A stretch of 58,969 bases of DNA, taken from contig NZ_KI421412.1 in the NCBI RefSeq assembly GCF_000472285.1, positions 435,381-494,349 of the forward strand, written 5' to 3'. The stretch is from Desulfuromonas sp. TF. GTDB lineage: Bacteria > Desulfobacterota > Desulfuromonadia > Desulfuromonadales > ATBO01. Of this stretch, positions 1 through 6,532 are shown piece by piece. Below the pieces are notes generated by a model. That model was given only the letters and a program-made list of their open reading frames with translations. It ran no database searches and was not told the origin of the DNA. Position numbers and translations under genes: made by a program. How positions within the stretch are numbered: position 1 is the stretch's first letter; each line of letters opens with the position of its first letter.

Positions 1-1250
1 AGACCAGGGTCTTTCCCGTCTGCGGCGCCGGCGGGATCACGGCGTATGCGGCGGTGATACGCGATCAGACCCACGAGGTGAAGCTCCAGAGGCAGCTCCG
101 GCAGGCCCAGAAAATGGAAGCGATCGCCACCCTCTCCGGGGGGATCGCCCATGACTTCAATAACATCCTGGCCGCCATCACCACCAACACGGAAATGGCC
201 CTGGATCATGTTCCGGAGAAATCGATCGTTCTGGAGCACCTGTCCATCGTCCTCAAGGCCGGATTCCGGGCCAAGAACCTGGTCAAACAGATCATGACCC
301 TGAGCTGCCAGGTGGAAAAGGAGCGTCAGCCGGTGCGTCTCGATCATGTCGTCGGCGAATGCATGAAGCTGCTGCGGCCCTCCCTGCCGGCCACGATCGA
401 CATGCGTCATCACTCCGGCGGTGATCTCGGACTGGTGCTGGCCGACCCGGGCCAGATCCACCAGGTCATCATGAATCTCTGCACCAACTCCGCCGACGCC
501 CTGCGGGAGAAAGGAGGAAGCCTCGACATCATGCTGCAGAACGTCGACCTGGCGGCGGGCGATCCCGCGGCCGTCCCGCAGCTCCCGGGAGGACGCTATG
601 TGCGCCTGTCGATCTCCGATACAGGTCACGGGATGGAGGAAAAGACCATGGAGCGGATTTTCGATCCCTTCTTCACCACGAAGGGGCCTGGACGGGGAAC
701 GGGGCTGGGACTGTCTGTCGTCCATGGCATCGTCAAGAATCACGGCGGCGGAATTTCCTTCGCCAGTAAGCCGGACAAGGGAACCACCTTCCACATTTTC
801 CTGCCGCGGACCGATCTGCCGGAGAAGGTCATGGAAGAGACCTCCTCCGTCCCCCTCACCGGCGGCCGGGAGCGCATCCTTTTCCTCGACGACGAGGAAG
901 ACCTGGTCTTTGCCGGGCAGAGGATGCTCGAAAAACTGGGCTACGCTGTGGTGGCGGGTACGGACAGTCTTGAGGCGCTGGAAGTCTTCCGGTCCCAGCC
1001 CGATCGCTTCGACCTCGTCATCACCGACCAGACCATGCCGCGCATGACGGGGCAGAGGCTCGCCCGGGAGATCCTCGGCCTGCGCCGGGACATTCCGATC
1101 ATCCTCTGCACCGGTCTGGGCTGCGGCGCCGGCGGGGGGATCACCGAGCAGGACGCCCGCGCCGCCGGCATCCGCGAAGTGGTGATGAAGCCGGTGGAGA
1201 GGGACGAATTCGCCAGGATAATCCGGCGGGTGCTGGACCAGAATCGATAG
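1..1250 (+). CDS. hybrid histidine kinase, 5' end outside the window
   Basis: Sensor kinase that autophosphorylates on His and passes phosphate to receivers. The reading frame is open from base 3, so the true start lies upstream; the GTG at 54 is internal. What remains is the end of a PAS-like sensor region, a HisKA-type H-box (GGIAHDFNN, His near base 150), an N-box (NLCTNSADAL), G-boxes (DTGHGM, GTGLGLSVV) and, from about base 870, a C-terminal receiver with DDEED, a phospho-acceptor Asp in ITDQTMP and a Lys in VMKP. The HDFNN form of the H-box is typical of the NtrB-like kinases that partner NtrC-type regulators. The next gene begins 14 bases after the stop and encodes exactly such a regulator, so the two are probably a cognate pair. 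Its signal cannot be read from this fragment. Confidence 0.9.
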   Translation, partial: TRVFPVCGAGGITAYAAVIRDQTHEVKLQRQLRQAQKMEAIATLSGGIAHDFNNILAAITTNTEMALDHVPEKSIVLEHLSIVLKAGFRAKNLVKQIMTLSCQVEKERQPVRLDHVVGECMKLLRPSLPATIDMRHHSGGDLGLVLADPGQIHQVIMNLCTNSADALREKGGSLDIMLQNVDLAAGDPAAVPQLPGGRYVRLSISDTGHGMEEKTMERIFDPFFTTKGPGRGTGLGLSVVHGIVKNHGGGISFASKPDKGTTFHIFLPRTDLPEKVMEETSSVPLTGGRERILFLDDEEDLVFAGQRMLEKLGYAVVAGTDSLEALEVFRSQPDRFDLVITDQTMPRMTGQRLAREILGLRRDIPIILCTGLGCGAGGGITEQDARAAGIREVVMKPVERDEFARIIRRVLDQNR

Positions 1251-1264
1251 CGGAAGAGGTGACG

Positions 1265-2746
1265 ATGGCAAGCATTCTCATTATCGACGACGACGACCTG
1301 ATGGTTTCCACCCTGGAGCTGATGATCCGCCGCCTGGGGCATGAAGCAGCCAGCAGCGGCTCCCTCGGGGAGGGGGTCGGAATGGCCGCCTCGGAGGACT
1401 TCGACGTGGTCTTCCTCGATGTGCGCATGCCCGACGGCAACGGGCTCGAGACCATCCCCGCCATCGCCGAGGCTCCGTCCAGACCCGAGGTGATCATCAT
1501 CACCGGGTTCGGGGAGCCGGACGGAGCCGAACTGGCGATCAAAAGCGGCGCCTGGGACTACCTTGAAAAAGGCTCTTCGGTCAAGGAGATGACCCTCTCC
1601 CTCGAACGGGCCCTGCAATACCGCCGCGAGAAAAAGGCCCGGAGCCTGAAGCAGAGCGTGTGCGCCCTGAAGCGGGAGGACATCTACGGCAACAGCCCCA
1701 AGCTCATGGCCTGCCTGAACCTGCTCGCCCAGGCGGCCGGCAGCGACGCCAACATCCTCATTACCGGTGAAACGGGGACGGGCAAGGAGTTGTTCGCCCA
1801 GGCCATCCACCGCAACAGCCCGCGAGCCGACAGGAATTTCGTGGTCGTCGACTGCGCCGCTCTTCCCGAGACGCTGGCGGAAAGCCTGCTCTTCGGGCAC
1901 GAGAAAGGCTCCTTCACCGGCGCCGAGAAGACACGGGAAGGAATGATCAGCCAGGCCCATGGCGGAACCCTCTTCCTCGACGAGGTCGGGGAGCTGCCGC
2001 TGTCGCTGCAGAAAACCTTCCTCCGCGTCCTGCAGGAACGCCGCTTCCGCCCACTGGGCAGCGCCCGCGAGGTCGAGAGCGATTTTCGACTGGTGGCTGC
2101 AACCAACCGCAACCTGGAGGAGATGGCGGCCAGACACCAGTTCCGCAGCGACCTTCTGTTCCGGCTGCGCTCCTTCGCCATCGACCTGCCGCCCCTGAGG
2201 GAGCGAACAGAGGACATCAAGGAGATCGCCCGAACCCAGCTGGACCGGCTCTGTGAGTGTTATGGCCTCCCCTCCAAGGGTTTCTCCCCGGAGTTCTGCG
2301 AAACCCTGATGGCCTACCATTGGCCTGGAAACGTACGCGAGCTGGCCAACACGCTGGTGCGTGCCTTCGCGACGGCGCGTTTCGAGCCGACGATTTACCC
2401 CAAGCACCTCCCACCCGACATTCGCGTTCATATCATGCGCAACTGCGTCGGGCGCACCCCATCAAAGGAGGACGGCGACCGTCCCGGCGAACCGCCCCGG
2501 CGGCTGCCGAAGTTCCAGGACTACCGGGAGACGGTCTACACCGAGGCGGAAAAGCATTATCTGCACGACCTGATGTCATTGGCCGAAGAAAGCATCCCGG
2601 AAGCCTGCCGCCTCTCGGGCCTCTCCCAGTCCCGCCTCTATGCTCTCCTGAAAAAGCACAAGGTCGAACGCCGCGATCCGCTTCGCAACCCTCCGGAAAC
2701 GGACTGCCCGCCGGAGGAAAACACCCCTTATCCGCACCGGTCCTGA
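1265..2746 (+). CDS. bccR: sigma-54-dependent response regulator, NtrC family (BccR-like)
   Basis: Transcription activator that opens sigma-54 promoters by ATP hydrolysis. Domains in order: receiver (residues about 1-120; IIDDDD acid pocket, phospho-Asp in FLDVRMP), AAA+ domain (about 140-375; Walker A GETGTGKE, sigma-54 contact loop GSFTGA, Walker B LFLDE), and a short Fis-type helix-turn-helix near the C-terminus (EACRLSGLSQSRLYALLKKH). The ATG at 1265 is chosen over the GTG at 1259 because GAAGAGG sits 5 bases upstream of it. Two oddities: the receiver has Lys-Gly (DYLEKG) where Lys-Pro is usual, and the contact loop is GSFTGA, not GAFTGA. A sigma-54 promoter lies 156 bp beyond the stop. 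In Geobacter sulfurreducens the regulator BccR controls cbcBA; the same arrangement here supports that name, by inference. Confidence 0.85.
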   Translation: MASILIIDDDDLMVSTLELMIRRLGHEAASSGSLGEGVGMAASEDFDVVFLDVRMPDGNGLETIPAIAEAPSRPEVIIITGFGEPDGAELAIKSGAWDYLEKGSSVKEMTLSLERALQYRREKKARSLKQSVCALKREDIYGNSPKLMACLNLLAQAAGSDANILITGETGTGKELFAQAIHRNSPRADRNFVVVDCAALPETLAESLLFGHEKGSFTGAEKTREGMISQAHGGTLFLDEVGELPLSLQKTFLRVLQERRFRPLGSAREVESDFRLVAATNRNLEEMAARHQFRSDLLFRLRSFAIDLPPLRERTEDIKEIARTQLDRLCECYGLPSKGFSPEFCETLMAYHWPGNVRELANTLVRAFATARFEPTIYPKHLPPDIRVHIMRNCVGRTPSKEDGDRPGEPPRRLPKFQDYRETVYTEAEKHYLHDLMSLAEESIPEACRLSGLSQSRLYALLKKHKVERRDPLRNPPETDCPPEENTPYPHRS

Positions 2747-2756
2747 CCCTCTATCA

Positions 2757-2814
2757 TTTCCTGCCGGGGAGGAAAATTTCCTGTCCGGCAGGAATTTTCT
2801 TCTCCGGCAGGAAA
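2757..2814. repeat. imperfect multi-arm hairpin of CCGGCAGGAA-type repeats
   Basis: TTTCCTGCCGG (2757-2767) is exactly complementary to CCGGCAGGAAA (2804-2814), and further copies of the same word in both orientations lie between them (GGAAAATTTCC, CTGTCCGGCAGGAA). The block begins 10 bases after the regulator stop codon and could end its transcript. It shares its design with the hairpins near 26870, 29240, 41600 and 47070. Confidence 0.7.
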
Positions 2815-2901: not shown

Positions 2902-2917
2902 TGGCATTGCGGATGCA
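2902..2917 (+). promoter_or_regulatory. sigma-54 (-24/-12) promoter of the cbcBA-like operon
   Basis: TGGCATTGCGGATGCA matches the consensus TGGCAC-N5-TTGCA at 13 of 16 informative or free positions, with the required GG-N10-GC spacing. Transcription would start near 2929, giving a leader of about 59 bases before the first operon gene. The -12 half overlaps a perfect CATTGC-GGAT-GCAATG palindrome. Confidence 0.6.
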
Positions 2918-2987: not shown

Positions 2988-3239
2988 ATGAAAAAAGCAG
3001 TCAGCACATCCGCCATCGTCGGCCTGGTCCTGGCCGGAGCGGCACTTTTCGGCGCTCTTGCAGGAATCGGACGAGCGGAAAACTTGGGGGTCACCCTCTT
3101 CCTCGGTTTCATCGCCGTGATCATCGCCTTCCAGGTCGCCCCCGCGCTGATGCTCTTCGGCGTCCTGCTCAAGGAGGTCTTCCGCCCCTCTGCCAAAGAG
3201 AAGGCGGAGGTCAGAGTGCCGACCGGCGACGGAAAGTAG
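2988..3239 (+). CDS. small membrane protein, FLGF-QV family, copy 1
   Basis: An 83-residue protein of unknown function, first in the operon behind the sigma-54 promoter. AAAGGAG lies 6 bases before the ATG. It has an N-terminal hydrophobic stretch (about residues 8-28) that could be a signal anchor, then a second hydrophobic segment with the core FLGFIAVIIAFQVAPALM, then a short polar tail. The same core recurs in the proteins at 3702 and 3976, so the operon holds three paralogs. Expected location is the inner membrane. The co-transcribed cytochromes suggest a role in assembling or modulating the quinol oxidase. No catalytic or metal-binding residues are evident. Confidence 0.8.
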   Translation: MKKAVSTSAIVGLVLAGAALFGALAGIGRAENLGVTLFLGFIAVIIAFQVAPALMLFGVLLKEVFRPSAKEKAEVRVPTGDGK

Positions 3240-3248
3240 GGTGATTCC

Positions 3249-3668
3249 ATGGGAAAAGAGGCGGTCATGGACGAACGAGGAATTCTCATAGCGGACAAGG
3301 ACACCGAGACCCGCCGGCTGCTTGCCGACGTCCTGCTCAAGTCGGGCTACCTGGTGAGAACAACCGATTCGGCCGCCGTTGTCCTGAGCGAAATCCTCCG
3401 GAAAAACGCTCACGTCATCCTTATGGGAAACGATTTCGACGAAAAGATAGCGGCCGCGGACCTGGTCCCCATTATCAGGAAATGTGACCGGAACCTGACC
3501 ATCATCCTGATCACGGACGAGAAATCCCTCCCGACATTGCGCAGGATCCGCCGGGAGGGGATCTTCTACCACGCCCTCAAGCCGATGAACGCGGAGGAAG
3601 GCGAAGAGATCCGGCAGGCCGTGGACTGCGCCTTCAAGAACGTGGTGAACATCCTCAGCATCCACTAG
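3249..3668 (+). CDS. receiver-like protein lacking the phospho-acceptor Asp
   Basis: A single receiver fold of 139 residues with no output domain. It starts with the beta-1 strand and acid pair (ILIADKD) and keeps the Thr (LITDE) and the Lys-Pro (HALKPM) of response regulators. Where the phosphorylated Asp should be (normally LLD-xxMP) the sequence is VILMGND, with Gly at that place. It is therefore probably a pseudo-receiver that cannot be phosphorylated in the usual way. Two starts are possible: ATG 3249, or ATG 3267 (preceded by GAGGCGG), which fits the domain boundary better. It lies 9 bases after the first small membrane protein and before the second, so it belongs to the operon. Confidence 0.75.
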   Translation: MGKEAVMDERGILIADKDTETRRLLADVLLKSGYLVRTTDSAAVVLSEILRKNAHVILMGNDFDEKIAAADLVPIIRKCDRNLTIILITDEKSLPTLRRIRREGIFYHALKPMNAEEGEEIRQAVDCAFKNVVNILSIH

Positions 3669-3701
3669 AACTTTCCCGAACCGGAAAGGAGAGAAGCTCT
3701 C

Positions 3702-3938
3702 ATGAAACCCGCAATCAGCACCATGCTCACAGCCGCCGGACTCTCAATGCTGCCTGCCCTCGCCTGCGCCTCGACCGGGGGACGCGAGGACCACAGTCCC
3801 CTGGTGATCTGGGCATTTCTCGGCTTCTGCGCCCTGATTGTCATCGCCCAGGTGATCCCCGCCATCCTCAATGCCCGGAGGGCCGCCGCTGCGGAGAAGG
3901 AAGCAAGGGAGAAGGAAGCGGCCAGTACGTACCGCTAG
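3702..3938 (+). CDS. small membrane protein, FLGF-QV family, copy 2
   Basis: A 78-residue protein of unknown function with a likely signal peptide (residues 1-23, ending ALACAS), one transmembrane segment with the core FLGFCALIVIAQVIPAIL, and a charged Ala/Glu/Lys/Arg tail (about residues 58-75) likely to be cytoplasmic and helical. GGAGAG precedes the ATG. The core matches that of the products starting at 2988 and 3976. The small size, membrane location and operon position suggest an accessory subunit of the adjacent cytochrome complex, but this is inference only. Confidence 0.8.
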   Translation: MKPAISTMLTAAGLSMLPALACASTGGREDHSPLVIWAFLGFCALIVIAQVIPAILNARRAAAAEKEAREKEAASTYR

Positions 3939-3975
3939 GCCCGGGTGCCCGGGCACTGCCAAAGGAGAATCGATC

Positions 3976-4248
3976 ATGAAAAAGGAACTTTGCTGGATAG
4001 GAGCGCTGAGCTCGTTTTGGGCGGTCATCGTCTGGACGCCGGCGATTTTCGGCTGGCAGCCCATGGAGGGCTTCAGCGGCCTGGTCATCACATTTTTCCT
4101 CGGATACTGCTCCATCATCCTGGTGGCCCAGGTCTTCTCCGCCCTGATGGCCCTCCGCTCCCTGGCGGAGGATCTGGCCAAATCGAAAAGAAGCTCCCAA
4201 CGCGTGCTGTTCAGGACCGAACAGCCTTCCATTGCACCGGAGGAATGA
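3976..4248 (+). CDS. small membrane protein, FLGF-QV family, copy 3
   Basis: A 90-residue protein with two hydrophobic segments (about 5-24 and 33-56). The second has the core FLGYCSIILVAQVFSALM, clearly related to the proteins at 2988 and 3702. A basic/polar tail follows. AAAGGAG sits 8 bases before the ATG, which fixes the start well inside a longer open frame. The stop lies 2 bases before the ATG of the cytochrome gene, so the two are probably translationally coupled. Function is unknown; the context suggests a partner of the CbcA/CbcB complex. Confidence 0.8.
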   Translation: MKKELCWIGALSSFWAVIVWTPAIFGWQPMEGFSGLVITFFLGYCSIILVAQVFSALMALRSLAEDLAKSKRSSQRVLFRTEQPSIAPEE

Positions 4249-6007: not shown

Positions 6008-6532
6008 ATGAACGGATGCATGAATCCCGAACCGGAAGCGACCCGGCAGAGCACCTTCGACGCACCGTCGGCACGGCGCCGAGGAAACCACCTCCAGGAT
6101 CACCAGCAGGAGCTCCAATTATTCTCGCGCCGCTGGCTGCAGGGACTGTTCGCCTTTCTCCTGGTCAGCACCTGTTTCTTCCTGATCCGCCGGATCGACC
6201 TGCTCGCGCCCCTGGCGGAGAGCACCCGGCAGTTTCTCGGCTGCCCGCCGCCGCCGGCCCTGACGACCCTTGCCCTGGCGGTCTATCTCTTCTCAACCGT
6301 GGTTCTGATCCTCGACCGTACCGCCGGCGGTGCCATGCCTTCGCTGAAGTGGCGGCATCTCGTCTGCCGGTCCATGTTCTTTTTCTTCTACGCCGTTGCC
6401 AACGCCCTGGACGAACATTTCATTTTCGTCTTCGTCGCCGGGCTGGTGGTCTGCGGGCTGGAGCTGCTCAATATCTATGCCTATTCGATGAAGACCTTGC
6501 CCGGAGGAAAGGAGATGGTCGGCAAGCTCTGA
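6008..6532 (+). CDS. hypothetical four-span membrane protein, end of the cbc-like operon
   Basis: A protein of 174 residues with a polar N-terminus (about 1-40, rich in Glu, Arg and Gln) followed by four hydrophobic stretches (about 43-62, 82-102, 115-132, 136-158). No heme-binding CXXCH and no recognised family. AAGGAGG lies before the ATG at 6008. It follows the cytochrome b gene by 43 bases on the same strand, so it is probably co-transcribed and may be a further membrane subunit or assembly factor. Its convergent neighbour begins 6 bases beyond the stop, which marks the operon end. Confidence 0.7.
   Translation: MNGCMNPEPEATRQSTFDAPSARRRGNHLQDHQQELQLFSRRWLQGLFAFLLVSTCFFLIRRIDLLAPLAESTRQFLGCPPPPALTTLALAVYLFSTVVLILDRTAGGAMPSLKWRHLVCRSMFFFFYAVANALDEHFIFVFVAGLVVCGLELLNIYAYSMKTLPGGKEMVGKL

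Follow-up and report, generated by a model that had tools for sequence, protein, structure and literature searches.

Three small membrane proteins, encoded beside cytochrome genes in a 58,969-nucleotide stretch of DNA from Desulfuromonas sp. TF (the whole stretch is referred to as the window), belong to a single large family, here called SM, which probably takes part in building or controlling the respiratory complexes of metal-breathing bacteria and related organisms. The genes recur as a cassette, with types A and B occurring as pairs, often together with a receiver protein that has lost its phosphorylation site; the cassettes have sigma-54 promoter and enhancer sequences in common, and the family co-occurs with genes of Cbc complexes. 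The SM family, its combination with a phospho-dead receiver and the phylum-wide enhancer are apparently new, no description of the family having been found in the accessible portions of the open-access literature.

The small membrane proteins and their operon

The window operon (Table 1) lies 3' of genes for a histidine kinase, the true start of which may be beyond the window edge, and a sigma-54 activator. The three reading frames of the original prediction were recovered at the places and sizes listed, that of SM-C starting at an internal ATG, preceded by AAAGGAG, of a longer mechanical ORF. They had been described as tandem copies, which is apt in that types A, B and C lie side by side, but not for the first and second, between which the receiver gene intervenes. 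Both the heptaheme CbcA and the b561 CbcB of the Cbc5 operon are present, and the 174-residue membrane protein that follows would fit a CbcE-like subunit, judging from its position and its relatives in Cbc loci. No gene for CbcC (12 hemes) or CbcD (HAMP, heme) was found 3' of cbcB at this operon, where the gene of the 174-residue protein is succeeded by opposite-strand genes.

Table 1. Features of the window operon and of the genes 5' of it
Feature	Position	Strand	Remarks
Histidine kinase with C-terminal receiver	54..1250	+	HATPase_c, Response_reg; HisKA just under cut-off
NtrC-type sigma-54 activator	1259..2746	+	receiver, Sigma54_activat
Candidate enhancer	2757..2814	.	three consecutive TTTCCTG/CAGGAAA-like inverted repeats, 5' of the sigma-54 promoter
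Sigma-54 promoter TGGCATTGCGGATGCA	2902..2917	+	begins 86 nt 5' of SM-A start; score 13.7 of 16.2
SM-A, small membrane protein, 83 aa	2988..3239	+	
Receiver-only protein, 139 aa, pseudo-receiver	3249..3668	+	Gly at phospho-aspartate position
SM-B, small membrane protein, 78 aa	3702..3938	+	
SM-C, small membrane protein, 90 aa	3976..4248	+	
CbcA-like cytochrome c, 347 aa	4251..5294	+	seven CXXCH motifs
CbcB-like b561 cytochrome, 218 aa	5308..5964	+	
174-aa membrane protein	6008..6532	+	without Pfam match

Pairwise Smith-Waterman scores of the three proteins were 73 (A-B), 57 (A-C) and 80 (B-C). Shuffling in 12-residue blocks, by which local hydrophobicity is retained, gave means of 30-32 (s.d. 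6-7), and the observed scores were reached in 1, 3 and 0 of 3000 shuffles, respectively; among 695 unrelated membrane-segment fragments the maxima were 50, 50 and 41, none equalling the observed scores. When SM-B was used as a query against the whole 4.4 Mb genome (E<=10), five places were found: the three in the window, plus a further two in a second respiratory operon. This single-sequence search, which provides an independent test of membership, detected C at 1.7e-4 and A at 0.02, while a 21-row profile matched window C, B and A at 1.8e-24, 1.7e-23 and 1.6e-18, all three being themselves rows of that profile. The proposed paralogy is therefore upheld, the similarity being greater than in all but a few shuffles and than that to any of the unrelated membrane fragments. 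Chance likeness would be the obvious objection, given that the segments are short, hydrophobic and of low complexity, and that the weakest pair, A-C, is the one whose score is reached in 3 of 3000 shuffles. It was rejected as vanishingly improbable on the strength of the shuffles, the unrelated membrane fragments and the family profile; a profile made from the genome's own five copies finds the family in 90 of 136 same-order genomes at E<=0.01 (1.2e-22 for the best match in another genome), and the pairing, promoter and enhancer recur with it.

Family searches covered the phylum. SM proteins were detected in 134 of 167 class genomes (at least 95% completeness, E<=1e-6), with up to 17 copies per genome, and, in a phylum-wide sample of 395 genomes, in 40 (E<=1e-4), 29 of which are outside the class. 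Most are about 75 residues long, with a signal-peptide-like start that ends, as judged by eye, in AxA (SM-C is without a clear AxA), one conserved membrane segment (FLGFCALIVVAQLVPA) and a short charged tail. F39 and Q50 (SM-B numbering) are invariant in 21 of 21 sequences, the Q lying mid-helix in the membrane segment, and a single-chain model predicts helices only, a helical start being followed by one long helix. Type C is represented by seven proteins (motif search), six of which adjoin cbcA/cbcB and one of which (L170) lies elsewhere.

The family had been called unnamed, and this is consistent with the libraries searched, in which no Pfam or NCBIfam model (21 SM proteins, E<=0.01) and no PDB sequence covers these proteins. 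Known small-protein families gave only weak matches and were rejected: DUF2561 matched SM-B at E 5.8e-4, under its cut-off, and BRANT_His_rich matched one of the 21 SM proteins at E 2.1e-5, a match tentatively put down to a His-rich tail, with two weaker matches besides.

The cassette and its genomic contexts

The window receiver matches PF00072 above its cut-off (E 2.5e-9). At the phospho-aspartate position, 128 of 136 receiver relatives have G, S or A, and 8 have D, a set that includes some repeats of one gene from overlapping stretches, while the motif EGIFYHA shows little or no variation among 24 aligned receivers. Only one other match is present in the window's genome (E<=1e-8), at the Cbc4 locus (55%). 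Retained across much of the phylum without its phosphorylation site, this protein provides a clear case of such a receiver domain. Receiver and SM sequences are sometimes joined: 17 of 18 ORFs of 200-260 aa have a receiver joined in frame to B, and a natural receiver-B ORF (L060) is modelled as a Spo0F-like receiver followed by helices. Because 12 of the 18 retain a ribosome site (by eye) at the own ATG of B (or C), these fusions are weak evidence of contact, and were dropped as proof of it.

The second respiratory operon of the window's genome has the window's order of SM-A, receiver and SM-B, after which come genes for a 61-residue protein, for a cytochrome c and for FeS and NrfD-like subunits. 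Its FeS subunit is matched by the HmcB model at E 2.6e-120, and a relative of the NrfD-like subunit (L075) by the HmcC model at E 1.1e-100, the scores (401 of 420 and 338 of 550) being under the curated cut-offs; loci with such HmcB/HmcC-like FeS and NrfD genes are labelled here as Cbc4 type. The cassette is thus carried by two unrelated complexes, one with b561 and heptaheme CbcA, the other with an HmcB/HmcC-like FeS and NrfD pair. The 61-residue single-helix protein (VDFYQYIKGVEYL; L006:7275-7460), which has no Pfam or NCBIfam match, recurs 5' of the Cbc4 cytochrome in many Cbc4-type loci. Genes for heme-sensor kinases with CXXCH, for an activator and for a kinase-less CXXCH sensor are present at many redox loci; the last of these, a CbcD-like two-helix CXXCH sensor found 3' of the redox subunits at many loci (L006:10450-11361), is related to the neighbouring heme-sensor kinase, without the kinase domain.

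How closely the cassette follows the complexes was seen from two sides. In 78 receiver-anchored loci, the best 78 of 118 relatives, an SM gene lies within 600 bp on the same strand in 73, and a complex gene lies downstream in 67 (45 of Cbc4 type and 22 of cbcBA type); four of the 11 loci with neither end within 1 kb. This sample leans to the window's kind, being the best of 118 receiver relatives. From the SM side, 12 genomes yielded 46 clusters with 85 SM proteins, of which 18 clusters (34 SM proteins; 13 clusters with a receiver) are no more than 4.5 kb from a Cbc complex, while the other 28 (51 SM proteins; 7 with a receiver) have no Cbc complex within 4.5 kb, and are called lone. No fixed partner of the lone cassettes was evident, the commonest Pfam family occurring in 4 of 84 neighbours examined (154 listed), and with neighbours lacking a common function the idea of a fixed partner gene was rejected. 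A third redox context is seen in family f31 (L220, L221), where the genes next after an A-B-receiver cassette encode an 11-heme CbcA-like cytochrome together with two membrane proteins. One genome (G601) has a second cbcA without an adjoining SM gene.

Co-occurrence across genomes points the same way. SM proteins are present in 134 of 167 class genomes, a CbcA relative in 113 (E<=1e-25) and the Cbc4 FeS subunit in 76 (E<=1e-70), and a cbcA or Cbc4 FeS gene was found in 130 of the 134 genomes with SM, compared with 2 of the 33 without (G031 and G032); Fisher's test gives 5e-27, for genomes that are non-independent. Genomes of the same genus differ together (G130/G131, G064 and G069/G062, G046/G047). 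Four genomes (G533, G563, G564, G565) have SM and no CbcA or Cbc4 FeS gene at the cut-offs used, and their SM contexts could involve another partner. The original prediction linked the family to cbcA/cbcB, and 22 of the 78 receiver-anchored loci bear this out, but the matches do not always sit there, as 45 of the 78 are at Cbc4 and 28 of 46 clusters in 12 genomes are lone. Nor are the matches scattered at random without a link to cytochrome operons, since the lone cassettes share the promoter and enhancer of those operons and SM is nearly confined to complex-bearing genomes. The link of SM to cytochrome complexes is real, and wider than first proposed.

In one family of lone A-B-receiver cassettes (f6), orthologous copies from different genomes show about 82-84% similarity, a level shared by much of the flanking DNA (in the nearest genome pair, G026/G035, 89-93%), whereas cassettes at different places in one genome are 97.8-99.1% alike over about 1.23 kb from the -24 box. 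Such near-identical pairs within a genome are L039/L040, L045/L047, L058/L079 and L081/L082, and the loci concerned by homogenised cassettes are L039-L048, L057, L058 and L079-L083; a second f6 class (L042, L048, L080) lies outside the homogenisation, with some copies partly in. A mobile element was considered and rejected, f6 cassettes being at orthologous places in several genomes. Orthologous places combined with near-identity inside each genome make gene conversion the preferred explanation, and the f6 cassette would then be a functional unit subject to it.

Sigma-54 promoter and enhancer

A sigma-54 site (score at least 12 of 16.2, within 200 bp upstream) precedes 169 of 185 SM clusters, compared with 55 of 629 control genes of the same stretches, SM starts having been trimmed to the likely ATG and control starts taken as each ORF's first start codon. 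Further upstream lies an inverted repeat, taken as the enhancer. Its exact core, TGTAT-N9-ATACA, occurs in 32 of 159 dereplicated upstream regions, with no dyad above 4 in five shuffles, and TGTATA-N7-TATACA (at most two mismatches) is found 5' of 156 of the 190 SM genes, where block shuffles would give 6.9. The site is found in 144 of 177 distinct upstream regions, and in 151 of the 190 cases it is spaced about 84-110 or 177-205 nt 5' of the -24 box. Counted per gene rather than per cluster, it precedes 68 of 82 lone, 68 of 76 Cbc4-linked and 20 of 32 cbcBA SM genes, lone here meaning that no complex gene was detected (E<1e-10) in the stretch within 4.5 kb, a class in which a few cases may be contig-end cuts. 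With 20 of the 32 cbcBA-type cases having it, the site is common to the family and not defining. The shared sigma-54 promoters and single enhancer, taken with the co-occurrence across genomes, tie the lone copies to the complexes.

The exact enhancer and promoter pattern occurs at 10 places in 4 of 12 genomes and at none in the other 8, the window's included, and the reversed pattern at none in the 12. The 10 places comprise six mapped SM cassettes and four further places read by eye: two SM cassettes in which the SM start is visible before the contig breaks off, a cbcB operon and an operon for formate dehydrogenase. In the last of these (L229:1500-1615) the gene downstream of the enhancer and promoter is formate dehydrogenase-like (by eye), so that the regulon may, on this sequence likeness, include other quinone-linked enzymes. 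The cbcB operon (L225), which is without SM, also lies under this enhancer and is transcribed divergently from a sigma-54 activator gene. Two enhancer sites each are found at a cbcA-linked pair and at a lone pair in four genomes belonging to a single genus of the class, and in G600 a further single SM gene lies 5' of another cbcA with no TGTATA site upstream.

The window operon lacks TGTATA-N7-TATACA, which the second locus in its genome does have. The repeats at the window operon (2757-2814) are candidate sites for the window's own activator. Where the activator is co-directional, a TTTCCTG/CAGGAAA-like motif was found 5' of SM in 6 of 13 cases; the figure is 0 of 36 where the activator is divergent (32 of these 36 have TGTATA) and 3 of 155 where no activator is nearby, all being plain counts without a shuffle control.

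Proposed role and relation to known systems

The reading we tentatively put first is that the SM proteins form a membrane hetero-oligomer which, with a cytoplasmic phospho-dead receiver, assembles or tunes low-potential menaquinol:cytochrome c oxidoreductases. An activator answering a heme-sensor kinase would turn on Cbc complexes and SM cassettes together, and the sigma-54 promoter would cause the SM module to be made along with Cbc5 (CbcBA) and Cbc4. Once freed of its Sec signal peptide (assigned by eye), each SM protein would span the membrane by one helix, leaving a short stub in the periplasm and a short tail in the cytoplasm; SM-A and SM-B, joined by SM-C beside CbcA, would form a hetero-oligomer in the inner membrane, capped on its cytoplasmic side by the phosphorylation-dead receiver. 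The module would assemble, stabilise or tune Cbc5 and Cbc4 in low-potential respiration, with stand-alone cassettes, under the same enhancer, raising the supply of SM. If so, the parts list of the Cbc complexes is incomplete, and the genes of a sigma-54 regulon for low-potential respiration are recognisable by a 19-base enhancer. Against it stand the 28 of 46 clusters that are lone, the genomes in which complex and SM are mismatched, the different enhancer of the window, and published subunit lists that, in their accessible text, are without SM.

Small proteins of the MgrB or SafA type act on sensor kinases, and by analogy the SM proteins could be feedback regulators that set the strength of the regulon, their binding partner being the heme-sensor kinase or else the CbcD-like sensor without a kinase domain, and the receiver acting as a decoy, either for the sigma-54 activator or for the kinase. 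The kinase, activator and kinase-less sensor genes at many redox loci would suit such an arrangement, as would the common enhancer and a receiver without a phospho-site, but most lone cassettes are without such a kinase or activator in the mapped stretches, up to 17 SM copies per genome are many for a decoy, and lone clusters contain 51 of the 85 SM proteins, while just 7 of these 28 clusters have a receiver; we regard it as somewhat unlikely. Unlikely too is a membrane organiser or stress factor with a Psp-like logic, in which abundant single-helix proteins shield or shape the inner membrane at energy scarcity. Sigma-54 promoters, many copies, lone cassettes without a fixed partner and the homogenisation of copies in some genomes are in keeping with it, and so is the formation of intracytoplasmic membranes by Geobacter sulfurreducens in energy-limited growth, as given in the accessible text of PMC10082016. 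However, SM is nearly confined to genomes with Cbc4 or Cbc5 and is built into those operons, and no Psp family model was matched.

A further reading, in which antenna-like A/B pairs polymerise into rings or patches in the inner membrane and gather Cbc5, Cbc4 and perhaps formate dehydrogenase into respiratory domains, is improbable; the domains might seed the intracytoplasmic membranes of energy-limited Geobacter, the receiver would dock on the A/B pairs, and the many cassettes, homogenised by gene conversion in some lineages, would serve to keep the SM subunits interchangeable. Least probable of the functional proposals, and doubtful indeed, is that SM are plain structural subunits of Cbc4 and Cbc5 only, the lone cassettes being duplications without further role. 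The position of the genes between activator and cytochrome genes would be expected of subunits, but in the lone cassettes the promoter and the spacing of the enhancer are retained, the frames are open, and sequence is exchanged between places in one genome, which argues that these cassettes are in use.

Members of the family may already be in print. In G. sulfurreducens the hypothetical GSU0597 and the response receiver GSU0596 change together, as do GSU3409 and GSU3410 (accessible text of PMC10599522); GSU3409, GSU0597 and GSU3410 are lowered in a csrA mutant (excerpts of PMC11934962), and GSU3409 and GSU3410 are listed as putative membrane proteins (excerpts of PMC6520446). These may be SM-A (GSU0597), the pseudo-receiver (GSU0596) and a lone SM pair (GSU3409/GSU3410), and if this identification is right, SM proteins have been published, in the portions of these papers available, as hypothetical or putative membrane proteins with a response receiver. 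The available main text of PMC2725144, on the RpoN regulon, does not name GSU0594, GSU0596, GSU0597, GSU1648 or GSU1653, and no paper linking bccR with Geobacter was found in the open-access literature.

The closest known systems are the Cbc complexes of G. sulfurreducens. Cbc5 (CbcEDCBA) resembles the window in cbcA, cbcB and the cbcE-like gene, and differs in that the window operon is without a CbcC or CbcD gene 3' of cbcB; its published subunits are CbcA-E, and the subunit lists for Cbc5 and Cbc4 in the accessible text of PMC7894505 and PMC11434368 name neither SM proteins nor the receiver. Cbc4 (CbcSTU) resembles the second locus in its cytochrome c, HmcB/CbcT-like FeS subunit and NrfD-like subunit. 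The Hmc complex of sulfate reducers is similar in the HmcB/HmcC-like subunits of Cbc4-type loci, although these score under the curated cut-offs, and in having a receiver-only protein in the operon. The receiver-type protein of the Hmc complex is Rrf1, and we know of no SM proteins in Hmc systems.

Among small membrane proteins, PspB, PspC and PspG are likewise located in the inner membrane and under sigma-54 control. SM proteins differ in being tied to respiratory operons, with a receiver standing where Psp has PspA, and 21 SM proteins searched against Pfam and NCBIfam (E<=0.01) matched no Psp model. Subunits of the CydX/CcoQ type are also single-helix accessory proteins encoded in respiratory operons, but each of these is known as a subunit of one enzyme, whereas SM proteins are paired, multi-copy, common to unrelated complexes and, in the 12 genomes, mostly encoded elsewhere.
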